Origin: Streptomyces tsukubensis
GTDB taxonomy: Bacteria; Actinomycetota; Actinomycetes; Streptomycetales; Streptomycetaceae
Reading direction: 5' to 3'
Assembly (NCBI RefSeq): GCF_003932715.1
Contig: NZ_CP020700.1
Location: 372,001 to 436,000 of the forward strand
Length of the DNA stretch: 64,000 nt
Shown here in pieces: positions 1 through 14,759 of the stretch. Positions within the stretch are counted from its first letter, which is position 1. Each line of letters starts with the position of its first letter. The notes under the pieces were generated by a model. That model was not told where the DNA came from, made no database searches, and saw only the letters and a list, made by a program, of their open reading frames with translations. Both the position numbers and the translations under genes were made by a program.

Positions 1-3000
1 ATGCCGCGGGGCAGGCAGAGGGCCACCACGGACTCCGGGCCGGCTCCGAGGCCGCGCAGATGGTGGGCGAGACGGGCGGCGCGGGCCGCGAGTTCGCCGT
101 AGCGGATCGTGGTGCCGTCGCTGCTCACCGCGGTGGCTTCGGGGGTGCGGGCGGCCTGGGCGGTGAAGAGTCCGGGGACTCCGGCCTCCGGCGCGGGTGT
201 CTTGGGTCCCTGTCCGGAGCGGGCGATCCGCAGGCTTACGGCCGGGTCCAGCACGCCGACCGCGGTGAACGGGGTCCCCGGGGCGTCGGCCAGGGCGTGG
301 GCCAGTTCTCCGAGGCAGGTGTCGAGCAGGGAGAGGATCAGCGCGGGGTCCGCGCCTGCGGTGGTGTCGGCGGTGATGTCGAAGGCGTCGCCTGTGTCCC
401 GGACGATGAGCGTCACGGGGTAGTTGGTGCGTTCCCGGGCGTGGAGCACCGCGATGCCGTCGAGTCCGAGGCCGGATTCGCTGATCATGCGGCCGTGCTG
501 GAAGTTGAGGATGGTGGTGAACAGGGGGGCGCCGCCGGGGACTCCGCTCGCCTTCTGGGCCAGGGCGAGGGGGGCGTGTTCGTGCTCCAGCAGCCCGGCG
601 AGCTGATGGCGGAGTCCTGCCAGGGCTCCGGCCACGCCGTCGGAGCCGACGCTGACCCGCATGGGCAGGGTGTTGAGGAAGAGGCCGGGCACCCGGTCGG
701 CGCCGGGTCCGGCGTTCATCCGGCCGGTGAGGACGGTGCCGAAGACGACGTCGTCGCGGCCCGCTGCAGCGGCGAGGACCCGGGCCCAGGCCAGATGGAA
801 GAGGGTGGCCGGACTGGTGCCCAGGTTCCGGGTCGTCTCCCGCAGCCGGCGGGCCCGGTCGCCGTCGACGGTGAGCGCGGCGCGGGCGGGCGGACCGCAG
901 TCGCCGGTGGCGCCGCCCGTTCCGAAGGCGGCGGTGGGTTCGGTGACATCGCCCAGCAGGGCGGCGAAGTGGCGTTCGTGATCGGCGGCGGAGGTGCCGA
1001 GCCGGGCCTGTGCCACCAGATTGCGGAACGGGAGGGGCGCCGGGAGCCGGTCGCCGCGGCCGGTCAGGAAGGCGCGGATCTCCGCCAGGAGGAGCCACAG
1101 GGTGGTCCGGTCACCGGCGATGTGGTGGATCCGGAGCAGTGCGAGCCGCCGCCCGGCACCGGGTTCGTCACCGGGTTCGTCACCGGCTGTGTCGAGGACG
1201 AGGACACCCAGCAGCGGGGCGCGGTCCAGGGCGAAGGGTGCGGCGCCCGCGGCGAGCAGCTGGGCCAGCGGGTCGCGGCCGGGGTCGGGTGCGGTCCGTT
1301 CGACGGGGATCCGGGCCGTGCGGCACACGACCTGGACGGGTTCGCGGAGCCCTTCGGAGACGATCGCGGTGCGGTAGATGTCGTGCCGGTCGACGACCTG
1401 TTGCAGGGCGCCGAGGAAGGCGTCCAGCCGGTCCGGGGTGTCGAACTCCAGCACCACGGAGCGCAGATAGACGTCGGGGTCGTCGTCGGCGCGCGCCAGA
1501 TGGTGGAAGAGCATGCCTTCCTGGAGCGGGGCCAGGGGGTAGACGTCGGCGATGTTGGCGGCTCCGCCGTCGACGCGGGCGACGACGGCGGCGATGTCGT
1601 CCTCGTCGAGTTCGGTGAGCGGCAGCATGGCGGGGGTGAGGGCGGTGGTGCCCTCCGGTATCCGGTTCTCCGGGATGTCGACGGGTGGCGGGCCGGCGAC
1701 GGCGGCCAGCCCGGCGGCGGTGGGGGTGAGGAAGAGCGCCCGTACGGACACGGACAGTCCGTGCGCCCGCAGGTCCTCCACCAGGCCGACGGCGATCAGC
1801 GAGTTCCCGCCGAGGGCGAAGAAGTCCTCGTCGGGTCCGACGGTGTCGAGGCCGAGGACGCGGGCGAAGGCGGCGCAGAGGATCTCTTCCTGGACGGTCC
1901 GCGGCCCGCGGCCCGCTTCCGTGCTCGCCGTGCGTTCGGGTGCGGGCAGGGCCGCGCGGTCGAGCTTTCCGCTCGGGGTCAGCGGCAGGGCGTCGAGGAC
2001 GACGACCGCCGCGGGGACCAGGTGCTCGGGCAGGCGGCGCGCCAGATGGTCCCGGACCCGGTCGGCGAGTCCGTGCTCGTCGGCGCGGTCGCCGGGGACG
2101 AGATAGGCGACGAGGCGGTGCTGCCCCGGGGTGTCCTGCCGGGCGGTGACGGCCGCCGTGGCGACCTCGGGATGGCCGGTGAGTACGGTTTCGATCTCGC
2201 CGGGCTCGATGCGGAAGCCGCGGATCTTGACCTGGTCGTCGGTGCGGCCCGCGAACAGGAGCCGTCCGTCGGCGCCCCACCGGGCCCGGTCCCCGGTCCG
2301 GTACATCCGGGCCCCGGGGGTGAAGGGGCAGGCGACGAACCGTTCTGCGGTGAGGCCCGGCCTGCGGACGTAGCCGCGGGCCAGTCCGGGGCCCGCGAGG
2401 TACAGCTCGCCGGGGACACCGGGGGGTACCGGGCGGAGCCGTTCGTCGAGGACGTAGGTGCGGGTGCCGCCGAGGGGTGTGCCGATGGGGATCCGGCCGT
2501 TCTCGGCGTCGTGGGCGGTGAGTTCGGTGGTGGTGGCGCCGATGGTGGCTTCGGTGGGGCCGTAGTGGTTGTGGATCGTACGGTTCCCGGCCGCGGCGAG
2601 GAGTTCCCCGACGAGGCCGGGCGGTGCCGCCTCGCCGCCGAGGACGAGTGAGCGGGCGGGCAGGACGCCGCCGGGGCCGGACCGGGCGGTCAGGGCCGCC
2701 AGATGGGAGGGGACGGCCTTGAGGTGGTCGATGCGGTGTTCGGTGAGGTAGGCGGAGACGACGGCGGGGTCGAGGACCGTGTCGGGGTCGAGGATGTGCA
2801 GTTCGCCGCCGGTGGCGAGGGAGCAGAAAAGCGTGGTGTTGCCGAGGTCGGTGGTCGGCGGCTGGAGCAGGGCGTACCGGGCGCCTTCGCCGCCGAAGCC
2901 GAGCCGTCCGGGGGCGGCGGCGACATAGTGGGCGAGGGCGTCGTGGGTGACGGCGACGCCCTTGGGCGTACCGGTGGAGCCGGAGGTGTAGACGACGTAC

Positions 3001-6000
3001 GCGAGCCGGTCCGGGCGCGGTTCGGGGACGACGGCCGGGTGGGTGGGTGCCGGGGTGTCGGGCCGCAGGACCTGCCCGGCCGGGACGATGCGGACCTTTC
3101 CGGCGGGGAGGTCTCCGATGGCGTCTTCTGGGGCGATGAGGAGGACGGCCCGGCTGTCGGTGAGCATGAACGCGGTCCGTTCGACGGGCTGCCGGGCGTC
3201 GACCGGGAGGTAGGCGGCGCCGGCCTGCCAGACGCCGAGGATCGCGGCGACGAGTTCGGGGCCGGGTGGCAGGCAGAGTCCGACGACGGACTCCGGTCCG
3301 ATGCCCGATCCGGTCAGGTAGCGGGCGACCGTTGCGGCGCGGGTGCGGAGTTCCGCGTACGGCACGGGGGTGCCGTGGTGGTGGACGGCGACGGCGTTCG
3401 GGGTTTGCCCGGCCCGGGCCAGGAACAGTTCGGGCACGGTCGGGTGGGGTGCGGGCGGGGTGCCGTCGCTCCAGGTGCCGAGGACCCGGGCGCGTTCGGC
3501 GGCGTCGAGGAGGTCGAGGTCGCCCGGCCGCAGGCGCGGGTTCTCGGTGACGGCCCGCAGTACGCGGATCCAGCGTTGGGCGAGCAGGGTGGCGAATCCG
3601 GCGTCGAAGAGATCGGCGGCCGCGGTCACCGAGCCGGTGAGCCCGGCGGGTGCGGCCCGTTCGGCCCCTTCGGCCCCTTCGGCCCCTTCGGCCCCTTCGT
3701 TGAAGGTTTCGACGACCATGACGTCGAGGTCGAACTTCACCCCGGGGCGGGCGCCGGGGACGGGCGTGACGTCGATACCGGGCAGGTCGAGTCCGGCGCC
3801 GGTGGTGTTCTGCATGGTGAGAACGGTCTGGAAGAGGGGGTTGCGGGCCACGGAGCGGGCCGGGGCGAGCTCTTCGACGAGTTTGTCGAAGGGCACGTCC
3901 TGGTGGGCGAAGGCGCCGAGGGTGGCGTCCCGGACCCGGGCGAGAACGTCGGTGAACGGCGGGTCGCCGGTCAGGTCGGTCCGGACGACCACGGTGTTGA
4001 CGAAACAGCCGACGAGGTCGTCCAGGGCTTCGTCGGTACGTCCGGCGATCGCGGAGCCGATCGGGATGTCGGTGCCCGCGCCCAGTCGGGACAGCAGGAC
4101 GGCGAGCGCGGCCTGGAGGACCATGAAGACCGTGACGCCCTCGGTCCTGGCCAGCCGGGTGAGGTCCGCGTGGAGGTCGGCGGGGACCTGGAGGGGGGCG
4201 TCGTGTCCCCGGTGGCCTGCGGTGTCGGGGCGCGGCCGGTCGAAGGGGAGGGCGAGCTCTTCGGGCAGCCGGGCCAGGGCGTCGCGCCAGTAGGCGATCT
4301 GGCCGGCCATCAGCCCCGCGGGATCGTCGGGGTCGCCGAGGAGTTCGCGCTGCCAGAGGGTGTAGTCGGCGTACTGGACGGGCAGTGGCCGCCAGTCGGG
4401 TGCCCGGCCCAGGCTGCGGGCGGTGTAGGCCTCGGACAGATCACGGGTGAGCGGGCCCATCGACCAGCCGTCGCCGGTGATGTGGTGGACCACCACGACC
4501 AGGACGTGCTCCTCGGGTCCGGTGGCGAACAGCCGGGCCCGGACCGGGGGTTCGGCCGTCAGGTCGAAGGCGTAGGCGGCGGCGCGGGCGACGGCGGCGT
4601 CCAGTTCCCCGGGCGCGACCGGTTCCGGGAAGGGTCCTGCGGCCGTCTCGTCGAGGTCCGCGATCCGCTGGTGGTGGCGGCCGTCCGTGACGGGGAAGCA
4701 GGTGCGCAGCGCCTCGTGGCGGCCGAGGACGTCGCGGAACGCGGCGGCCAGTGCGGCGTGGTCGAGCTTCCCGGTCAGGCGCAGGACGACGGGGGCGTTG
4801 TAGGTCGTGCCGCGGCCTTCGAGCCGGTCGAGGAAGAGGAGCCGCCGCTGGGCGAAGGACGGCGGCAGGTGCGCGGGCCGGTCCCGGGGGGCGAGCGGGG
4901 GCCGGGCGGGTGCGGGGGCCGCGGCGGCCGGGCCGAGCCGGGCGGCGAGCCCGGCGGCGGTCGGGTGGAGGAACAGGTCCCGCATCTCGGCTTCGGTGCC
5001 GAGGGCGGTGCGGATCCGGGCGACGACGCGGGTGGCGAGCAGCGAATGGCCGCCGAGTTCGAAGAAGCTCTCGTCGGGTCCGACGGCGTCGAGGCCGAGG
5101 ACTTCGGCGAAGACCCCGCAGAGGATCTCCTCCTGCGGGGTCGCCGCGCGGCCCGTCACCGCGGCCCGTTCGGGGGCGGGCAGGGCGTCCCGGTCGACCT
5201 TTCCGCTGTGGGTCAGCGGGAGTTCGGGGAGGACGACGATCGCGGCGGGCACCAGATGTCCGGGGAGCCGGGCGGTCAGGAAGGTACGGAGCCGTTCGGG
5301 CAGGGTGCCGTCGGGCGTTTCCCCGCCGGGGCGCCCGGGGCCGGTGGTGTAGGCCACCAGCTGCCGTTCCCCGGTTCCGGTTGCGCGGGCCGTGACGACG
5401 GCCCTGGTGACCTCGGGGTGGGCGGCGAGGGCCGTTTCGATCTCGCCGGGTTCGATGCGGAAGCCGCGGATCTTGAGCTGGTCGTCGGTGCGTCCGGCGA
5501 ACAGCAGGCCGGCGTCGGGGCTCCGGTGCACCCGGTCGCCGGTCCGGTAGAGCCGGCCGCCGCTGTCGAAGGGGTCGGCGACGAACCGTTCGGCGGTCAG
5601 GGCGGGGTTCCCGGTGTAGCCGCGGGCCAGGGCCGGACCGGCGACGTACAGTTCGCCGGTGGCGCCGGGGGGCACCGGTTCCAGGAAGTCGTCGAGGACA
5701 TGGACGCGGGTGCCGGTGACGGGGGTGCCGATCCCGGGGGCCGCGCCAGGGCGGAGCGCGCCGGAGAGGGTGGCGCAGACGGTGGTCTCGGTGGGGCCGT
5801 AGGCGTTGATCAGGTCGCGGCCCGGTGCCCACCGGTCCACCTGGTCGGGGGTGAGGGCCTCCCCCGCGGACACGAGGGTGTGTACGGGTGCGAGGTCGGC
5901 GGGGTCGAGTGCGGCGAGTACGGCGGGCGGCAGCGTCGCATGGGTGACGTCGTGCCGGGCGACGACACCGGCGAGTCCGGCGCCGGGCAGGAGTTCTTCG

Positions 6001-8027
6001 GCCGGGGCGAGGACCAGTGCGGCGCCGGTGCCCAGGGCCATCAGTACTTCCCAGGTGGCGGCGTCGAATCCGGGGGAGGCGAACTGGAGGATCCGGCTGC
6101 CGGGTCCGGCGCCGAGCCGGGCGGCCTGGGTGGCGACCAGGGCGGCCGTTCCGGCGTGGGTGAGGGCGACGCCCTTGGGCCGGCCGGTGGAACCCGAGGT
6201 GTAGATGACGTACGCGAGTCCGGCGAGTTCCGTGGCGGGTGCGGGCCGTTCGGCGGGCCGGGCGGCGATCTCGGCCCGTACCGCGGGATCGTCGAGGGCG
6301 ATCGCGGGCGGCCCCTGGACGGCGTCCACGGGCAGTTCGTCCAGGATGTCGGTGGTGGTGAGGAGGAGCGCGGCGCGACTGTCGGAGAGCAGGTACGCCA
6401 TCCGGTCCAGCGGCTGGCGGGGGTCGATCGGGAGATAGGCGGCGCCCGCCTTGGCCACGGCGAGCAGTGCGGTGACGAGTTCCGTGCCGCGGTGCATGAC
6501 GACGGCGACGACGGATTCGCGGCGGGCGCCCAGCCCGGTCAGCTGGTGGGCCAGCCGGTTGGCGCGGACGTCGAGTTCGGCGTAGGTGAGGTGTTCGCCG
6601 TCGGCGACGAGTGCGGGGGCGTCCGGGGTCCGGTCGGCCCGGGCGTGGAACAGTTCGGGGGTGGTGAGGGCAGGGACCCGGGCTGCCGTGGTGTCCCGGC
6701 CCTCCGGTCCGGGGTGCGGGCCGCCGGTACGGAGCCGGAGCCGGCCGACGGGTTCGCCGGGCGGGGCGGCCGCCAGCCGGTGGAGGACCCGCAGGAAGCC
6801 GGTGACCAGGTCGTCGGCGGTGCCCGGTGCGTACCGGTCGCCGTTGACGTCGGCGTCGATCCGGATCCGGGTGTCGGCGGACCGGTCGTAGACGTTGATC
6901 TGCCGGTCCTCCGTCGGCCCGTGGGTGAGGTTGTGCACGGTGGCCGTGGCCGGGCCGAAGCGGGGCGGATAGCCGTATCCGAGGAAGTTGACGTTGAGGT
7001 CGAAGAGGGCCGGGGCGCCCGCGGGCGTCACTTCGCGCAGCAGGTCCTCGTAGCGGTACCGCTGGTGCCTCAGTCCGCGGCCGATGGCCCGGACGGTGCG
7101 CCGGACGGCTTCGGCGACGGTCGTGCCGGGGGTGAGTTCCACTCTGATGGGCATGACGTTGGACGTCATTCCGGCGATGCGCTGTTCCCTGCGGCCGGTG
7201 CGGCCGAGGACGGGTACGCCCAGGACGATGTCCCGGGCTCCGGTGGTGCGGTGCTGGTGGACGGCGGCCGCGGTGACGACCAGTCCGGCGAGCCCGCAGC
7301 CGAGACTGCGGGCGGCGGCCCGCAGGCGTTCGGATTCGTCGGGCGCAAGTCGGGCGCTGCCCCGGGCGGGCGGCCCCGCGCGCAGCCCGTCCCGGCCGGT
7401 CCGCTCCGCGGCCCCGGCGAGGGTGTCCAGCCAGAAGGCACGGTCCCGTTCCCGGTCGGGCGAGGCGCGGTAGGCGTGTTCGGCGTCGACGAGCACGGTG
7501 GACGGTTCGGGCGCCTCCGCCGTGTACCGGCCGCCCGTGAGGAGGGCGCTGTAGGCGTCGGCGACCCGGGCCGCGATCAGGGCGCCGCCGTGTCCGTCCA
7601 GGATCAGATGGTGGGCCCGGTGGTACCAGAACAGGGTGTCGTCGCTCACGACGAGCACGGCGAGCGCGAAGAGCGGTCCGCTGCGCGGATCGACGGGGCG
7701 GCGCAGTTCCGTACGCATCCACGCCTCCGCGGCGGCCCGTGGTTCGGGCTCGGCGCTGACGTCGACGAGCTGGACGGGTACGTCCGCCGCGGGTTCGGTG
7801 TACTGCCGCGGCTCCCCGTCGGCGACGGTGAACCGGAGGCGGTAGGCGTCGACGTCCGCCACGGCGGCGCGGACCGCCCGGGCGAAGAGGCGGGGGTCGG
7901 CTCCGCCGTCGATCTCCAGATACTCGGCGACGTTGAGGACCGTGTCGTCGGGCGCGAGCTGCTGGGCGTACCAGATGCCGCGCTGGGCTGCGGTCAGCTC
8001 CCGGAGTCCGGTGTCGGCGGCGGTCAT
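1..8027 (-). CDS. Nonribosomal peptide synthetase, C-A-T-C-A-T-C-A... (3' end outside window)
   Basis: Multimodular enzyme assembling a peptide on carrier domains; the first 2675 codons are visible and the gene runs off the left edge inside the third A domain. Start ATG at 8027. Order: C1 (HHLILDG from residue 139), A1 (SGSTG core near 610), T1 (LGGHS, Ser995), C2 (HHITGDG near 1180), A2 (SGSTG near 1680), T2 (LGGNS, Ser2076), C3 (HHIAGDR near 2300; the usual DG is DR), then the start of A3. Hand alignment to the GrsA pocket gives A1 = D-A-W-T-V-A-A-V-C-K, close to the Phe code, and A2 = D-L-T-K-V-G-H-I-G-K, the textbook Asp code. No epimerisation or thioesterase domain is visible. An N-terminal C domain plus the divergent AMP-ligase/ACP operon suggests the first amino acid is N-acylated (inference). 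A GAE repeat fills the C2-A2 linker. Confidence 0.95.
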
Positions 8028-8418
8028 CGGGCCCCGCCCCCTGCCGCCGTGGGCCGGTGTCCGCCGTCGGAACCGTCGAATGGCATCGGCACGGGCCGTC
8101 CTCTCGGGTGGGTGAACGCTGTTCGTGACCGGTCGGGAGCCGGCCGCCGACGCGGCCGGGGCGCTCGATGCCGGGGGCCGCACGGTGCTCCCCCGACGCG
8201 GCGGGAGTGCGGCGCTCGCGCAGGTCTCCGGACGGCTGTGTGGTGGTTCCGGCGGTACGGGCGCGCGGCGCCGCGGACCGTGGTGCGACGAGGCCCGGTC
8301 CGGGAGTGCCGTGGCTGTCGTCGTGCGCCCGCCGGGAACGAGCGGGACAGCCCTTACGATCGGCCATCTTCGCCAGGGCCCCCGGGGGCGTCAACAAACC
8401 GTCCGGCGGGCGCGGTTC

Positions 8419-8455
8419 GCCTGTTCAACCGCGTCGCCGCCGCGTTTGAACAGGC
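8419..8455. promoter_or_regulatory. Long inverted repeat in the NRPS/P450 divergent region
   Basis: Arms GCCTGTTCAA (8419-8428) and TTGAACAGGC (8446-8455) are perfectly complementary. After one mismatch, four more pairs extend inward, leaving a 7-nt centre. It lies in the 570-nt gap (8028-8597) between the NRPS and P450 starts, in its most A/T-rich part. It could be a dimeric regulator operator or a hairpin. Apart from this and the repeat at 8548-8567, I see no gene or RNA in the gap. Confidence 0.5.
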
Positions 8456-8547
8456 TCCCGCGGTGCGTCGGTGTCAGGATCGGCGGAGCCTTTCTCCGCC
8501 CGGGAAGCTGCCGTACTGTCGGCGGCCGGCGGACCCCGGGGCTTCCC

Positions 8548-8567
8548 GTGGATCCGGCCTGATCCAC
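8548..8567. promoter_or_regulatory. Inverted repeat GTGGATC-N6-GATCCAC upstream of P450
   Basis: Perfect 7-bp arms (8548-8554 and 8561-8567), 30 nt before the P450 start codon. The same arm sequence and the adjoining GGCCT recur in the longer repeat at 11641-11682 inside this operon, which suggests a shared regulator or RNA element. Confidence 0.5.
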
Positions 8568-8597
8568 GAGGGACGACGGGACGGGGGGTGGATTCTC

Positions 8598-9899
8598 GTG
8601 AGGAGCGGACCCGCCGGAGGGGCCGGTGGAGGACCGGTGCCGCCGGACCCTCCCGCGCTGCCGGAGGAGATCGCCGAGCTGACCGATCCCGGCCACCGGG
8701 AGGACCCGTACCCGTACCTCGGCAAACTGCGTGAACGCTCCCCGTACCGGCCCTTCGACGGGCTGGTCGTGGTCGGGCGGCACGCCCAGGTGTCGGCCGT
8801 CCTGCGGGATCCGGCGATGAGCGCGGCGCGGGACCGGGCCGCGCTCTCGCCCACCCCGCAGGGGCCGCGGACCCGGAACTTCCTCCATCTCGACCCGCCC
8901 GAGCACACCCGCTACCGGCGGCTGGTCGCGGGCGCCTTCGCCCGCCGCCAGGTGGCGGGGCTCGCGCCGCGGATCCGGGAGATCGCGGCGGAGCTGGTGG
9001 GGGGTGCCGCCGGGCCCGGTGGTTTCGAGGTCGTCGACGGGCTGGCCTATCCGCTGCCGCTGCGGGTCATCTGCGAACTGCTGGGCGTTCCGTTCGAGGA
9101 CCGCGATCTGCTCCAGGACTGGTCGGCGAAGCTCTCCGAGGCGCTGGACCCGCCGATCGGGCCGGCCGCGGGGCGGATGACGACGGACGCGGCCCGGGCC
9201 AGGGCCGCGTTCGTGGCGTACTTCCGCAAGCTGATCGAACAGCGGCGCGACGCGCCCCGGGACGATCTCGTCTCCCATCTCCTCCAGGTCGAGGAGGACG
9301 GACAGCGGCTCGACGACCACGACATCCTGACGACCTGTGTGCTGCTCCTCAACGCCGGTCACGAGACGACCGTGAACCTGATCGCCAACGCCGTGCTGGC
9401 ACTGCTGCGGCACCCGGACCAGCTGGAGCGGCTGCGGGCCGATCCCTCGCTGGCGCCCGCCGCCGTCGAGGAGGTCCTGCGCTACGACGCGCCGGTACAG
9501 ATGACCACCCGGGTCGCCCGCCGGGCGGGGACGATCGGCGCCGCCGAGGTCCGCCCCGGGGACATGGTGCTGCTTCTGCTGGGGGCCGCGAACCGGGATC
9601 CCGGGGTCTTTCCCGATCCGGACCGGTTCGACATCGGCCGCGGTCCCGCGCCCGCCCATCTGTCGTTCTCCGCCGGACCGCATTTCTGTCTGGGGGCGGG
9701 GCTGGCGCGGCTGGAGGTCGCGATCGCCCTGGAACTCTTCGCGACGCTCCCGGTCCGGCCCCGGCTGCGGCCCGGCGGTGTCGTGTACAAGCGCAATCTG
9801 AATCTGCGGGGCCCGGACCGGCTGCTCATCGACACCGATGCCGTCCGCCCCGCCCCGCCCGCCGCCGAGGGACCACCACAGGGACCGCATCATGGCTGA
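8598..9899 (+). CDS. Cytochrome P450 (probable carrier-bound acyl or aminoacyl substrate)
   Basis: Heme monooxygenase, 433 aa, the usual length for soluble bacterial CYPs. Visible signatures: I-helix AGHETT (residues 253-258), the ExxR pair E292/R295, and heme loop FSAGPHFCLG with axial Cys364. The GTG start at 8598 follows a G-rich Shine-Dalgarno stretch; reading upstream of it is open but not coding-like. The stop overlaps the AMP-ligase start by 8 nt, so the two are translationally coupled. Being in one operon with an acyl-AMP ligase and a free carrier protein suggests it oxidises the substrate while tethered to that carrier, as BioI-like and NRPS-linked CYPs do; the exact reaction cannot be read from sequence. 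A ferredoxin gene is not present nearby. Confidence 0.93.
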   Translation: MRSGPAGGAGGGPVPPDPPALPEEIAELTDPGHREDPYPYLGKLRERSPYRPFDGLVVVGRHAQVSAVLRDPAMSAARDRAALSPTPQGPRTRNFLHLDPPEHTRYRRLVAGAFARRQVAGLAPRIREIAAELVGGAAGPGGFEVVDGLAYPLPLRVICELLGVPFEDRDLLQDWSAKLSEALDPPIGPAAGRMTTDAARARAAFVAYFRKLIEQRRDAPRDDLVSHLLQVEEDGQRLDDHDILTTCVLLLNAGHETTVNLIANAVLALLRHPDQLERLRADPSLAPAAVEEVLRYDAPVQMTTRVARRAGTIGAAEVRPGDMVLLLLGAANRDPGVFPDPDRFDIGRGPAPAHLSFSAGPHFCLGAGLARLEVAIALELFATLPVRPRLRPGGVVYKRNLNLRGPDRLLIDTDAVRPAPPAAEGPPQGPHHG

Positions 9900-11634
9900 C
9901 ACGCCTCATGATCTGACCGACGCACCGGATCTGGTGACGCTCTTCCGCGGATATGCGGCGGACCGGCCGGACGCCGAGGCCGTCGCCTTCGTCACCGATC
10001 CCGCGGATCCGCTGGGTTCGGCGGTGCGCTGGTCGTACGCCCGGCTCGACCGGGAGGCCCGGGCCCGCGCCGGCCGGCTGCGAGAGCGGTTGCCGCGCGG
10101 TTCGCGGGTCCTGCTGCTGCACCCCAACGGGCTGGAGTTCGCCGCCGCCCTGCTGGGCTGTCTGTACGCCGGGATGATCGCCGTCCCGGCGCCGCTGCCC
10201 GGCAGCCACCGGCACCACCGCAGACGCCTCGCCGCGATCGCCCACGACTCCGGTGCCGCTGCCGTCCTGACCACATCGGCCGATCTGGCGGAGGTACGGG
10301 GGTGGCTGGCCGACACGGTGAACGCGCCGGTCCCCGCCGAGGCGGGCGACGGGCCCGAAGGCCACGCCGACCCGGACGCATGGGAGCCGGTGCCGCTGGA
10401 CCGGTCGACGACGGCCGTGCTCCAGTACACCTCGGGCTCGACGGGCGACCCCAAGGGCGTGGTCCTCCGGCACGACCACATCCTCTTCAACTCCGCCGTC
10501 GGCACGGCCGCCCTCGGCTTCCGGGGCCGGGCGGGCGGCTGGCTGCCGCTCTACCACGACATGGGCCTGTTCACCCAGTTGCTCTGGCCGCTGCTGCGGG
10601 GCGAGAGCACCGTCCTGATGACGCCCACGGCGTTCGTCAGACGGCCGGTGCAGTGGCTGCGGATGATCGAGGCGCACGGCGTCAACTCGTCCTTCGCCCC
10701 CAACTTCGCCCTGGAGCTGAGCACCCGGAAGGTCCGCGACGAGGACGCGGCGGGCCTCGACCTGTCGAACTGGCACCTCGCGGGCTGCGGTTCGGAGCCC
10801 ATCGACCCCCGGGTGCTGTCCGCCTTCGCCGACAAGTTCGCCGTCTCCGGGCTGCGCCGCGAGGCCCTCGCCCCCTGCTACGGCATGGCGGAGTCGACGG
10901 TGTACATCTCGGGGCACACCGAAGGGCCCGCGGTGACCCGCCGGGTCGACGCCGGCGCGCTGGCCCGGGGCGAGTTCGCGCCCACCGCCGAGGGCGGAAC
11001 GGCCCGTGAGATCGTCGGCTGCGGACTGCCGGACGATTCGTTCGACCTCCGCATCGTCGATCCCGACACGGCGGAAGTCCTCCCGGAGGGCAGACTGGGC
11101 GAGATCTGGCTGCGGGGCCGGAGCATCTCCCCCGGCTATTGGCGTCGGACGGACAGCGCCGCCGTCTTCGACGCGGTCACCGCGGGCGGCGACGGCGGCT
11201 ATCTGCGCACCGGCGACCTCGGGGTGGTGGCCGGCGGACAGCTGTACGTCCACGGACGGCTCAAGGACCTGATCATCGTGCACGGCCGGAACGTCTACCC
11301 CCAGGACATCGAGTACGAGCTGCGCGCACAGCACCCCGAGCTGGGCCGGACGGGCGTCGTGTTCTCCGGCGACGGCGGCCGGCCCGGTGAACCCGGCGAG
11401 CCCACCGTCGTGGTCACCCACGAGGTGGCCGGGGTCCCGGCCGACCGGCTGCCCGCGCTCGCGGCCGAGATCCGGCGCACCGTGGGCCGCGAGTTCGGCG
11501 TCCGGGTCGGCACCGTCGCCCTGGTGAAGCCGGGCACCGTCCTGCGGACCACCAGCGGCAAGGTGCGCCGGTCGGCGATGCGGGAGCTGTTCCGCCAGGG
11601 CCGGCTGCCCTCCCTCCACCAAGACGTCCGCTAG
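9892..11634 (+). CDS. Fatty-acyl-AMP ligase-like adenylating enzyme
   Basis: Adenylate-forming enzyme of 580 aa expected to activate a carboxylic acid with ATP and load the neighbouring carrier protein. The phosphate loop YTSGSTGDPKG is at about residues 179-189, followed by the WLPLYHDMGL block, the YGMAEST motif and a C-terminal lysine in TSGKVRR. The LPLYHDMG-LF and GGxxRE(I)VGCG segments resemble the FAAL branch (DptE and mycobacterial FadD types) more than amino-acid A domains or acyl-CoA ligases. ATG 9892 lies inside the end of the P450 gene; the open frame upstream of it is not needed. The carrier gene follows after 117 nt. Inference: supplies the acyl starter for the adjacent NRPS. 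An aryl acid substrate is a possible alternative. Confidence 0.88.
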   Translation: MADTPHDLTDAPDLVTLFRGYAADRPDAEAVAFVTDPADPLGSAVRWSYARLDREARARAGRLRERLPRGSRVLLLHPNGLEFAAALLGCLYAGMIAVPAPLPGSHRHHRRRLAAIAHDSGAAAVLTTSADLAEVRGWLADTVNAPVPAEAGDGPEGHADPDAWEPVPLDRSTTAVLQYTSGSTGDPKGVVLRHDHILFNSAVGTAALGFRGRAGGWLPLYHDMGLFTQLLWPLLRGESTVLMTPTAFVRRPVQWLRMIEAHGVNSSFAPNFALELSTRKVRDEDAAGLDLSNWHLAGCGSEPIDPRVLSAFADKFAVSGLRREALAPCYGMAESTVYISGHTEGPAVTRRVDAGALARGEFAPTAEGGTAREIVGCGLPDDSFDLRIVDPDTAEVLPEGRLGEIWLRGRSISPGYWRRTDSAAVFDAVTAGGDGGYLRTGDLGVVAGGQLYVHGRLKDLIIVHGRNVYPQDIEYELRAQHPELGRTGVVFSGDGGRPGEPGEPTVVVTHEVAGVPADRLPALAAEIRRTVGREFGVRVGTVALVKPGTVLRTTSGKVRRSAMRELFRQGRLPSLHQDVR

Positions 11635-11640
11635 GTCGCT

Positions 11641-11682
11641 TCTTGTGGATCTTGCCGGGCTCGCATGGCCTGATCCACAAGA
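11641..11682. repeat. 11-bp inverted repeat between AMP ligase and carrier genes
   Basis: Perfect arms TCTTGTGGATC (11641-11651) and GATCCACAAGA (11672-11682) around a 20-nt centre, starting 6 nt after the ligase stop. It contains the GTGGATC/GATCCAC arms seen upstream of the P450 (8548-8567). It may be a weak terminator, an RNA-processing hairpin setting carrier-protein levels, or a second operator. Confidence 0.6.
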
Positions 11683-11751
11683 AACTCCCTAGCCCGGCCA
11701 CCCGGGCCGCGCCCGGGAGACCGCGCCGGCCCCCTGCTCCGAAGGAGTCCC

Positions 11752-12036
11752 ATGCACCACGCCACGACGGACGGCGTCCGGGCCGAGCTGCAGAAGTGGC
11801 TCTGCGGCTATCTGGCCGACGAACTCGGCGTACCGGCCGAGTCGATCGACCCCGAGGAGCCGATGTCCTCCTACGGCCTGGACTCCGTCCGGGCCATCAC
11901 CCTGCTCGCCGACGCGGAGGAGCACATCGGCCGCGAACTGGACCCCAACGCGCCCTGGGAGTACCCGACCGTTGCGGCCTTCGCGGGTCTCCTCGCCGAA
12001 CAGCCGGCCGCCGCCGGACCGGGCCCGCACGACTGA
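11752..12036 (+). CDS. Acyl/peptidyl carrier protein
   Basis: Free-standing carrier protein of 94 aa. The phosphopantetheine attachment site is Ser45 in YGLDS, in the typical position before helix II. A strong Shine-Dalgarno GAAGGAG precedes the ATG. It is the third gene of the P450-AMP ligase-carrier operon and should hold the acyl group as a thioester for the P450 and for transfer to the NRPS, like DptF-type carriers in lipopeptide clusters (inference from synteny). The hairpin at 12077-12107 closes the operon. Confidence 0.93.
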   Translation: MHHATTDGVRAELQKWLCGYLADELGVPAESIDPEEPMSSYGLDSVRAITLLADAEEHIGRELDPNAPWEYPTVAAFAGLLAEQPAAAGPGPHD

Positions 12037-12221: not shown

Positions 12222-13118
12222 ATGAGCCAGGACGGCCGTCCGGGCCCCGCGACCGAGGTCTTCGTCGCCCATCGCAAGCTGCTCTTCACCGTCGCGTACG
12301 AGATCCTCGGATCGGCGGCGGACGCGGAGGACGTCCTCCAGGAGACCTGGCTGCGCTGGGCGGACGTCGACCTCGCCACCGTACGCAACCAGCGTGCCTA
12401 TCTGGTGCGTATCACGGCCCGTCAGGCCCTCGGCAGACTGCGGACGCTGCGCCGCCGCCGGGAGTCGTACACCGGTCCCTGGCTGCCCGAACCGCTGCTC
12501 ACCGCGCCCGACGTGGCCGAGGACGCAGCGCTCGCGGAGAGCGTCTCGATGGCGATGCTGCTGGTGCTGGAGATGCTCACGCCCACCGAGCGGGCCGTGT
12601 TCGTCCTGCGCGAGGTGTTCGACCTGCCGTACGGCGAGATCGGCGAGGCCGTCGGGAAGACCCCGGCGGCGGCCCGCCAGATCGCCCACCGGGCCCGGGC
12701 CCGGGTCGCCGCCCGCCGCCCGCGCGCCGCGGTCTCCCCCGCGGAGGCCCGGGCCGCGCTCGCCGCCTTCCAGTACGCCGTCGAAACGGGTGAACTCCAG
12801 GGACTGTTCAACCTGCTGGCACCGGACGTCGTCGCCCTGAGCGACGGCGGCGGACTCGTGCCGTCCGTACCGCAGCCCGTGGCGGGGGCCGACCGGGTGG
12901 GCCGCCTGCTGACCGGCGGCCTAAAGACCTTCGCCAAGGGCCTGACCCTCGAACCCGCCTGGGTCAACGGCGGGCCGGCCCTGCTCGGGCGGCGCCACGG
13001 CCAGGTGGACTTGGTCCTCGCGGTCCGGATGGAAGGGGGCCTGGTCAGCGAGATGTACGCGGTGCGCAACCCCGAGAAACTGACCTGGTTGACACAGGAG
13101 ACGGCCGTCGGCCGCTGA
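12222..13118 (+). CDS. ECF41-family RNA polymerase sigma factor with SnoaL-like C-terminal domain
   Basis: Extracytoplasmic-function sigma factor, 298 aa. Sigma region 2 is at about residues 15-80 and region 4 at 105-165, followed by a C-terminal SnoaL-like extension of about 120 aa that in this family modulates activity in place of an anti-sigma factor. The three ECF41 hallmarks are present: WLPEPL in the linker, a DGGG motif, and NPEKL near the C-terminus (consensus NPDKL). The expected promoter lies directly upstream. ECF41 genes normally sit beside a carboxymuconolactone decarboxylase, oxidoreductase or epimerase target; none is here, so its targets are elsewhere or it is self-regulating only. 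The next gene is an independently transcribed PadR regulator. Confidence 0.95.
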   Translation: MSQDGRPGPATEVFVAHRKLLFTVAYEILGSAADAEDVLQETWLRWADVDLATVRNQRAYLVRITARQALGRLRTLRRRRESYTGPWLPEPLLTAPDVAEDAALAESVSMAMLLVLEMLTPTERAVFVLREVFDLPYGEIGEAVGKTPAAARQIAHRARARVAARRPRAAVSPAEARAALAAFQYAVETGELQGLFNLLAPDVVALSDGGGLVPSVPQPVAGADRVGRLLTGGLKTFAKGLTLEPAWVNGGPALLGRRHGQVDLVLAVRMEGGLVSEMYAVRNPEKLTWLTQETAVGR

Positions 13119-13177
13119 TCCGGCGCCCCTCGGATCCCGCCCGCCGCCGGGCCGCTCCAGCGGTCCCGGGCACGGAA

Positions 13178-13183
13178 TACCCT
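13178..13183 (+). promoter_or_regulatory. -10 element of a leaderless PadR transcript
   Basis: TACCCT, then 7 nt, then the ATG at 13191. This places the transcription start at or next to the start codon. Confidence 0.6.
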
Positions 13184-13190
13184 GGGGTGC

Positions 13191-13529
13191 ATGAGCGAAC
13201 GGGCGATGCAGGAACTGGCGCTGCTGGTGCTGACGGCCCTGGCGGACGAACCCCGGCACGGGTATGCGATCGCCCGGGAGATCAAAGGCATCACCGACGG
13301 GCGGGTGGTACCGCGGACCGGTGCCCTCTACGGGGCGCTGGACCGGCTGGTCACCGAGGGTCTGATCGAAGTACGGCAGGAGGAGATCGTGGACGGCCGG
13401 GCGCGCCGGGTCTTCGGGCTCACCACCGGCGGCCGGGAGCGGCTCGCGCTGGAGACCGAGCGGCTGGCCGTCGCCGTGCAGGAGGCCCGGCGGCGGCTGG
13501 GGCTGGGCGGAGCGCCCGCCACCGCCTGA
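13191..13529 (+). CDS. PadR-family transcriptional regulator
   Basis: Small winged-helix regulator, 112 aa. The fold is visible as an N-terminal helix (ALLVLTAL), the HGYAIAREI recognition region, and a wing ending VFGLTTGGRERL, typical of the short PadR class. ATG 13191 fits a leaderless promoter; an internal ATG at 13206 is the alternative. It faces the DUF4184 gene 230 nt downstream, which it might control, though no operator palindrome was clear. The effector is unknown. Confidence 0.9.
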   Translation: MSERAMQELALLVLTALADEPRHGYAIAREIKGITDGRVVPRTGALYGALDRLVTEGLIEVRQEEIVDGRARRVFGLTTGGRERLALETERLAVAVQEARRRLGLGGAPATA

Positions 13530-13760
13530 CCGAACAACGGTGCCGGTGGCGGCGGATGTCCGCACAGCCCCGGCACCGGGCCCCGCCCCTCCCCCGTGGA
13601 CAGGGAGCGGCCCCGCACATTCGACATAGTCACTTCAACGGAATACTCTCGATGACGTACCGTCCTTCGGTGCGTCCGGGCAGCCGTGGCCGACGCATGC
13701 CTGCGTCTCTCACCGCCCGCAGGCCGCACCGGGTCCGTCCGAGCGAAGGGGTGCCCCGCG

Positions 13761-14759
13761 GTGCCGTTCACCCTGGCCCATCCGGCCGCCGTCCTCCCGC
13801 TGCTGCGGCGCCCGTTCGTCCCCGCGGCCCTGGTCGCCGGCGCGATGGCGCCCGATGTCGCCTACTTCATCCAGACCCTGCCCTTCCGGCCCACCTCACA
13901 CGTCTGGTACGAGCCGTACTTCAACGCCACCGCGACGCACTCCCTCACCGACGCGCCGACCGTGGCCCTGCCCCTCGCCCTCGCCCTGGTCGCGCTCTAC
14001 TACCTGCTGCGCGGGCCGGTCTCCGCGCTGCTGCCGGCCCGCTGGGCCCCTTCGCCTCCCGAGCCGCCGGCGGCCGGCGCCGGGGAGCGGCTGCGCACCG
14101 GAGCCTGGCTCGTCCTGTCGGCGCTGATCGGCATCGCCACCCATGTGGCGTGGGACTCCTTCACCCACTTCGACGGATACGTGGTCGCCCGGGTGGACTT
14201 CCTCCGCGATCCGGTGCCGGGCGGGCTGACGGTGGCCCGGGTGCTCCAGCATCTGAGCACGGCGGCCGGTCTGGTGGCGCTGGCCGTCCATCTCGTCCGC
14301 AACAGGCGCCGCACCGGCACCGGGGGCTCCGCCGTCCGTACGCGGCCGCCGCGCGTCGTCCGCCGGGGAGCGGCCACCGCTCTCGCCCTGGCGGCCGGGG
14401 CGGGTGCCGTCGCGCAGACCGAGAGCCCCGGTTCGTACCTCCGGGAGGAGGTGGCCGACTACAGCCGTCCGATCGTCACCGACAACGGGAACAGCGTGGA
14501 CTATCCGGTCCGGACGGCCCGGGTTCCCTGGCCGGAGGCGGCCGAGGAGATGCTGACGCACGCGGCGAAGGGCGCGGGCACCGGACTCGGCGGCGGGCTG
14601 CTGCTGTACGGGGCGGCCTGGCACCTCCGCCTGCTGCCCCGGCGCGAACCCGTCCACGGAGGTGCGGCGGACACCCCGGGGCCGGCCGGAGACCGGCCCC
14701 GGGCGCAGAGGACACAGGGGACACAGGGGACGGGCAGCGGGGCTCAGTCGGGGATGTAG
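13761..14759 (+). CDS. DUF4184 family membrane protein
   Basis: Protein of 332 aa of unknown function. The N-terminus VPFTLAHPAAVLPLL is the hallmark start of DUF4184 and fixes the GTG at 13761 over an upstream in-frame ATG. Hydrophobic segments occur near residues 5-30, 70-85, 120-140, 170-185 and 215-230. Conserved polar motifs include PDVAYF, HS and HVAWDSFTH, reminiscent of metal-dependent membrane hydrolases (inference). A possible promoter is TTCGAC-N18-TACTCT ending at 13649. The C-terminus overlaps the convergent deacetylase gene by 16 nt. Confidence 0.85.
   Translation: MPFTLAHPAAVLPLLRRPFVPAALVAGAMAPDVAYFIQTLPFRPTSHVWYEPYFNATATHSLTDAPTVALPLALALVALYYLLRGPVSALLPARWAPSPPEPPAAGAGERLRTGAWLVLSALIGIATHVAWDSFTHFDGYVVARVDFLRDPVPGGLTVARVLQHLSTAAGLVALAVHLVRNRRRTGTGGSAVRTRPPRVVRRGAATALALAAGAGAVAQTESPGSYLREEVADYSRPIVTDNGNSVDYPVRTARVPWPEAAEEMLTHAAKGAGTGLGGGLLLYGAAWHLRLLPRREPVHGGAADTPGPAGDRPRAQRTQGTQGTGSGAQSGM

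Follow-up and report, generated by a model that had tools for sequence, protein, structure and literature searches.

A cytochrome P450 gene coupled to a fatty acyl-AMP ligase gene in the putative lipid starter of a 22-module NRPS line

Locus and operon organization

The 64-kb stretch of DNA analysed here (the window; G000:C1:372001-436000 of an 8.02 Mb genome, probably from a Streptomyces judging by its size, GC content, and named relatives) catches only the edge of an NRPS cluster that spans ~100,000 bases (Table 1). An operon encoding a cytochrome P450, a fatty acyl-AMP ligase (FAAL), and a free-standing acyl carrier protein (ACP; window 8598-12036, forward strand) is divergent from the reverse-strand gene for NRPS1 across a gap of 570 bases, with the start of NRPS1 taken at the ATG at 8027 (there is also a GTG in frame, at 8183). 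Pfam domains were identified in both (E values from 1e-15 to 1e-171), including Condensation, AMP-binding, and PP-binding in NRPS1 and, for the operon, p450 in 8598-9899, AMP-binding in 9838-11634, and PP-binding in 11752-12036. The open reading frames, Pfam domains, and pocket residues confirm the arrangement proposed in an earlier note on this DNA, in which a P450-FAAL-ACP operon is divergent from an NRPS with an N-terminal C domain and with Phe and then Asp codes. The same note described coupled starts throughout the operon, which holds for the first two genes but not for the third. As the P450 stop (9897-9899) and the FAAL start (ATG 9892) share eight bases in ATGGCTGA, these two genes are coupled, while the ACP starts 117 bases past the FAAL, behind a hairpin.

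Inverted repeats of the form GTGGATC...GATCCAC were found at two operon sites, compared to an expectation of 0.01 in the window based on shuffling. There are six such sites genome-wide, only the two operon sites in 194 kb, and none in 63 kb of a related genome (G237, see below), a distribution that speaks against a role as cluster-wide operators; the two repeats may be candidates for an operator or an attenuator. Beyond the ACP, window 12222-14759 encodes a sigma-70-family factor, a PadR regulator, and a DUF4184 protein. None of these has a match listed in the G237 stretch, and thus the cluster probably ends at the ACP.

Table 1. Features of the P450-FAAL-ACP operon and the NRPS line (window positions unless prefixed with G000:C1)
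Feature	Position	Strand	Basis or remark
NRPS1, 3 modules, Cs-A-T-C-A-T-C-A-T	1..8027, on to G000:C1:370344 (370344-380027)	-	ORF, Pfam
C domain, module 3	264..1646	-	dual E/C-like, long linker; predicts D-Asp at residue 2
A domain, module 2	2214..3416 (approximate)	-	code DLTKVGHIG (Asp)
A domain, module 1	5616..6650	-	code DAWTVAAVC (Phe)
Starter condensation (Cs) domain, module 1	6639..7928 (approximate)	-	HHLILDG motif; Cs-type solved matches
Inverted repeat GTGGATC-N6-GATCCAC	8548..8567		5' of P450
Cytochrome P450	8598..9899	+	GTG start; AGHETT and FSAGPHFCLG motifs intact
Fatty acyl-AMP ligase (FAAL)	9892..11634	+	ATG inside P450 end; Pfam, solved-structure matches
Inverted repeat TTCTTGTGGATC...GATCCACAAGAA	11640..11683		between FAAL and ACP; 12-bp arms
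Acyl carrier protein (ACP), free-standing	11752..12036	+	GLDS motif; Pfam PP-binding
NRPS2, 11 modules	G000:C1:324340-359733	-	same genome
NRPS3, 8 modules and Thioesterase domain	G000:C1:297827-324343	-	same genome

The NRPS line and its predicted peptide

The three synthetases add up to 22 modules (3 + 11 + 8), with the thioesterase last. The pocket codes read, in order, Phe, Asp, and Asp in NRPS1 (the A domain of the third module sits left of the window), Asn, Asp, Ser, X, X, Tyr, X, X, Asp, Gly, and Asp in NRPS2, and Phe, Y, X, Tyr, Phe, Asp, Tyr, and Asp in NRPS3, where code X is DALSLGTVM (5 occurrences in the line) and code Y is DALFLGLVL (one occurrence); the residue names for all codes other than Phe follow general code tables. 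With nine residues extracted per code, the first two A domains gave the Phe-like and Asp codes that the earlier note had read, and its Phe-Asp NRPS stands as the first two residues of the peptide though not as its extent, as NRPS1 itself has a third module (Asp) and the line corresponds to about 22 residues.

The probable residues for codes X and Y are Dpg and Hpg, given the genes beside the line for DpgA, DpgB, and DpgC, an HPPD-like protein, and an aminotransferase; solved structures and passages of two papers returned no result for the identity of DALSLGTVM as Dpg or Hpg. The three Dpg proteins scored above curated cut-offs (653.8 of 425, 318.5 of 140, and 663 of 530 bits, respectively), and the HPPD-like protein, at 235.1 of 277 bits, fell below its cut-off and is taken for a putative HmaS. 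An FMN_dh protein (hydroxymandelate oxidase type) had no match inside the cluster and two strong matches elsewhere in the genome. An enduracidin-type cluster was rejected, based on the differing codes and an aminotransferase that reached only 118.4 of 540 bits against MppQ. The genes between NRPS1 and NRPS2 encode a TauD-type oxygenase, an MbtH protein, a CmlA_N-type protein, an alpha/beta hydrolase, an ABC exporter, and a MacB/FtsX-type export set. Modules 7, 8, 10, 11, and 17 (G000:C1:297827-359733) share the same A code and a near-identical pocket-region sequence, which suggests recent duplication.

In six C domains (modules 3, 7, 8, 11, 16, and 18), the linker is long, the HHxxxD motif is altered, and an FHHL motif is present. 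Based on the linker and the FHHL signature these look like dual E/C domains, from which D-residues would be predicted at positions 2, 6, 7, 10, 15, and 17. The published dual E/C motif is HH[IL]xxxxGD, to which none of the six has a letter-for-letter match, and a solved-structure search with the C domain of module 3 returned C domains, McyB and PvdL best, which does not settle the dual type. E domains and dehydrating C domains were also considered and set aside: the spacing from carrier serine to the A3 motif (658–711 residues inside subunits) fits one domain only, and the linker and FHHL signature point to the dual type.

Assuming colinearity and residues as assigned by code, the predicted product is an acylated 22-mer that is rich in Asp (7) and arylglycines and has no basic residue. 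There are three Asp-X-Asp stretches by code (Asp-Asn-Asp, Asp-Gly-Asp, and Asp-Tyr-Asp), and the exact Asp-X-Asp-Gly, the calcium motif of daptomycin-type cyclic lipopeptides, is absent from the 22 codes. The 319 residues that follow the last carrier serine of NRPS3 hold the Thioesterase domain and leave no room for the X domain by which glycopeptide-type lines recruit P450s, and a glycopeptide-like system was rejected on these grounds. Feglymycin, ramoplanin, and enduracidin are Hpg- and/or Dpg-containing peptides of 13–17 residues with other residue orders (feglymycin has been described as a Dpg-containing 13-mer), compared to 22 modules and 7 Asp codes here.

A FAAL:ACP:Cs lipid starter

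The closest solved relatives of the ligase place it in the FAAL type. The 15 best matches include FadD23, FadD32, FadD28, 3pbk (‘Fatty Acyl-Adenylate Ligase’), and several chains labelled ‘Acyl-CoA synthase’, along with 7r7e-g (labelled polyketide synthase) and 3kxw (labelled saframycin synthetase), both of which we take to be FAALs despite their labels. Matches to the NCBIfam FAAL models were all below cut-off (380.7 of 775 bits for the best, a fatty-acid--AMP ligase model). The best solved match of the ACP is 2n98, a free ACP that is presumably friulimicin LipD. The first C domain of NRPS1 keeps the HHxxxDG motif and is no more than 25–30% identical to the remaining C domains of the line (alignments of at least 316 residues); its best solved matches are 7c1k, 7c1h, and 7c1p, followed by CDA synthetase I (5du9, 4jn3). 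The entry 7C1H is RzmA-Cs, and 4JN3, 4JN5, and 5DU9 are CdaPS1-Cs (PMC7804268). These Cs-type matches rule out an ordinary LCL domain, and the domain sits at the start of the protein, such that the configuration named in the earlier note as evidence against its reading, an LCL-type C domain with an upstream module, was not found.

With a lipoinitiating Cs domain in first place, the starter is a FAAL:ACP:Cs system of the daptomycin/friulimicin kind, and, by homology, the P450-FAAL-ACP operon is a lipid starter device of this class, with a stand-alone FAAL, an adjoining free ACP, and a Cs domain that opens the first NRPS without an upstream module. The earlier proposal that an AMP ligase and an ACP load an acyl starter is supported by the FAAL-type matches and by the resemblance of the ACP and Cs domain to lipoinitiation proteins. 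Initiation by FAAL:ACP:C-III has been described, with ACAD (acyl-CoA-dehydrogenase) genes between the FAAL and ACP genes of several clusters, and daptomycin, friulimicin, taromycin, malacidin, and enduracidin share with this locus the stand-alone FAAL, the stand-alone ACP, and the Cs domain on the first module (PMC9113097). Unlike those systems, the locus has a P450 coupled to the FAAL and no ACAD match within 15 kb, and there are 22 modules with a Thioesterase that ends the 8-module NRPS3 rather than a dimodular CAT-CATTe subunit, a trait of the daptomycin type.

Relatives carrying the same P450 clade

A FAAL scan of named genome contigs kept at least 80 loci, the best of which was 49% identical among the matches listed. 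All of the 295 genus genomes matched the FAAL query at E 0.001, a threshold that is not selective, and G237 stands out amongst them at 66% identity. In G237 the genes for the P450 (77%), FAAL (66%), and ACP (58%) keep this order and point away from an NRPS gene that likewise begins with a Cs domain (55%); of the three operon proteins, the P450 is the best conserved. The same contig encodes homologues of CmlA (90%), the response regulator (89%), DpgA (80%), HtpG (79%), the TE (65%), and HmaS (61%).

P450 searches scored at most four candidates per genome in genus, class, and family genome draws that overlap. Matches at E 1e-100 or better were found in four of 392 genus genomes (its own genome, G237, G037, and G101); at 1e-120, only its own genome matched out of 394 from the class, and its own genome and G993 out of 394 from the family. 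In both G037 and G993, the P450 (66% and 63%, respectively) is directly before an ACP, the sole ACP match there, and the FAAL occurs with a Cs-like NRPS start ~13 kb from the P450-ACP pair. Both have an HmaS homologue, and the presence of methyltransferase, prephenate dehydrogenase, and TauD genes near the pair makes it conceivable that the P450 has a role in amino acid tailoring in these two genomes. The P450 of G101 is ~50% identical, adjoins a ferredoxin gene, and is ~19 kb from the nearest strong FAAL match, with no ACP match at the threshold used.

ACADs and P450s in FAAL loci

The distribution of ACADs was explored in 20 comparison loci picked by FAAL similarity, 16 from the genus (one locus per genome, from the top FAAL matches below G237) and the best four of the 80 named loci kept (L098, left out of the 20, is counted among the 80). 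Seventeen of the 20 have ACAD homologues at most 15 kb from the FAAL, and the remaining three (L142, L020, and L022) have neither an ACAD nor a P450 match; Pfam confirmed the ACAD domains in six genes from three comparison loci. Matches to the FAAL, ACP, and Cs domain are combined in 11 comparison loci, ten of which have ACADs. The four P450-clade clusters (own, G237, G037, and G993) have none within 15 kb of the FAAL, with the G037 contig ending 1.8 kb past the FAAL, in contrast to friulimicin/ramoplanin-like cassettes, in which ACAD genes accompany the FAAL and ACP genes. In all four clusters, including those with the FAAL ~13 kb off, no more than 2 kb separates the P450 from the ACP.

Six of the 20 comparison loci (L019, L143, L144, L145, L147, and L148) hold ACADs together with other P450s (31–41% identical), and in these the nearest P450 is within 400 bases of the ACP. 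P450s beside starter ACPs therefore recur, and the replacement of ACADs by a P450 is not a rule. Three of the six (L019, L145, and L148) have another starter layout, FAAL-ACAD-ACAD-ACP followed by two P450s. Across all 80 named FAAL loci kept, there were ACAD matches in two, P450 matches in two (L019 and L098, the latter 7.7 kb from the FAAL and with no ACP or ACAD match), and a Cs match in one. Because most named FAAL loci have neither ACP nor Cs matches and rarely have ACADs, the absence of ACADs carries weight only among FAAL-ACP-Cs loci.

A proposed role for the P450

We consider it fairly probable that the P450 oxidises the FAAL-loaded, ACP-bound acyl chain before the Cs domain transfers it into the 22-module line. 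The FAAL would adenylate a fatty acid and hand the acyl group to the free ACP, where the P450 would oxidise the chain, most likely by hydroxylation, in a cassette that, unlike the usual starters related to it, has no ACAD-type desaturases. Condensation of the oxidised chain with Phe1 would fall to the Cs domain of NRPS1, and NRPS1, NRPS2, and NRPS3 would carry the extension to about 22 residues, with release, and presumably any cyclisation, at the thioesterase. The reading of the P450 as an acyl-ACP oxidase draws on its persistence beside the ACP, the distribution of ACADs (none of four P450-clade clusters as opposed to ten of 11 comparison loci), and its relatedness to P450BioI, a bacterial P450 of biotin biosynthesis that works on acyl-ACP. 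P450BioI (3ejb) is the fifth best solved match at 244 bits, a moderate similarity that is a likeness of sequence alone, behind CYP164A2 (292 bits), two CYP125MRCA sequences, and 8yhn, none of them an acyl-ACP oxidase as far as this analysis shows. The NCBIfam P450 families all stayed below their cut-offs (best, 214.8 of 343 bits), and there is no redox partner gene in the operon. Together the comparative data favour on-carrier oxidation, which the earlier note had suggested, short of proof.

A rather unlikely alternative is that the target of the P450 is an aromatic or acidic residue, hydroxylated on an NRPS carrier domain in the manner of OxyD or P450sky, or else the released peptide, so that the place of the P450 in the FAAL operon reflects co-expression only. 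Phe, Tyr, and arylglycines, typical targets of P450s, are abundant in the peptide by code, and the P450-ACP pairs of G037 and G993 occur among genes for amino acid supply and tailoring. Yet in those same genomes the P450 remains beside the ACP even without the FAAL, and the cluster already has a CmlA_N-type diiron hydroxylase and the TauD-type oxygenase for the hydroxylation of residues. Further, OxyD and P450sky entries, judged by entry code, were not spotted among the 60 best solved relatives listed for the P450, with at most a few entries per row. Oxidation of the free fatty acid prior to FAAL loading is improbable. It has a precedent in YbdT, a P450 that supplies 3-hydroxy fatty acids to surfactin and thus, as proposed here, hydroxy fatty acids to a lipopeptide, though YbdT is a peroxidase-type enzyme and acts before CoA ligation (PMC3111633). 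The P450 has no match to that family, with a score against the CypC peroxygenase model (26.7 bits, cut-off 600) that rules out a CYP152 fatty acid peroxygenase, and its position adjacent to the ACP favours a carrier-bound over a free substrate. It also keeps the AGHETT motif, which we take to be usual in monooxygenases. That the FAAL loads a non-fatty (e.g., aromatic) carboxylic acid, and that the product is not a lipopeptide, is very improbable given the fatty acyl ligases nearest to it and the lipoinitiation matches of the ACP and Cs domain, even though its substrate is unreadable from sequence, no FAAL model reached its cut-off, and the cluster makes aromatic precursors.

Several known systems share parts of the acyl-ACP oxidation route. 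The rotihibin rth cluster has a FAAL (RthH), an ACP (RthK), and an NRPS, and some related clusters have a P450 (RthO), but rth differs in its two acyl-CoA dehydrogenases and pentamodular NRPS (PMC8552735). In the jamaicamide starter (JamA), a FAAL likewise loads an ACP before an oxidative enzyme alters the chain, though that enzyme is a desaturase in a PKS/NRPS line (PMC11837247). The term P450 does not occur in the main text of this FAAL review, which extends to 2024, and the literature searched on P450s, FAALs, and lipopeptides held no P450 acting on a FAAL-loaded ACP, as judged by titles and the starts of abstracts. Even for the ACADs of lipoinitiation cassettes, no mechanistic study is reported in the account of PMC9113097. 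The FAAL:ACP:Cs starter is itself already known, and the new part would be its P450 variant; the size and composition of the 22-module acidic, arylglycine-rich line are as notable as the P450.

If the P450 acts on acyl-ACP, the operon would represent a genetically portable means for the on-carrier oxidation of lipopeptide tails, whereas dehydrogenase-type desaturases serve in the related starters of the comparison. The lipopeptide predicted from the cluster is acidic and unusually long, with a composition unlike the families compared. A broader reading, offered tentatively, is that a dedicated P450 has taken the place of the two ACADs and that the resulting lipopeptides, with 22 residues, seven Asp, many arylglycines, three Asp-X-Asp stretches, and no basic residue, form a new class (large, acidic, polyphenolic, and possibly calcium-binding) that may have its own HtpG chaperone.

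Chaperone and other genes

A full HtpG/Hsp90 gene is located between the Dpg genes and NRPS3 (G000:C1:293826-295715; L010:11826-13715) and may encode a chaperone that serves the giant synthetases. No other strong Hsp90 match occurs in its genome, which has two further matches of at most 28 bits; in G237, too, the homologue in the cluster is the sole strong match. Strong Hsp90 matches occur in 16 of 30 hand-picked genus genomes, and in G037 and G993 they are far from the P450. A second NRPS region at G000:C1:30000-70000 has HmaS-like and FMN_dh genes, with one of the two FMN_dh genes found elsewhere in the genome adjoining the second HmaS-like gene at 34–36 kb, and might supply the oxidase step for which the cluster gave no match. 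At G000:C1:288758-289927, there is a 389-aa beta-lactamase-fold protein whose resemblance to the CmlA homologue of G237 (49%) is confined to the C-terminal part of that homologue.
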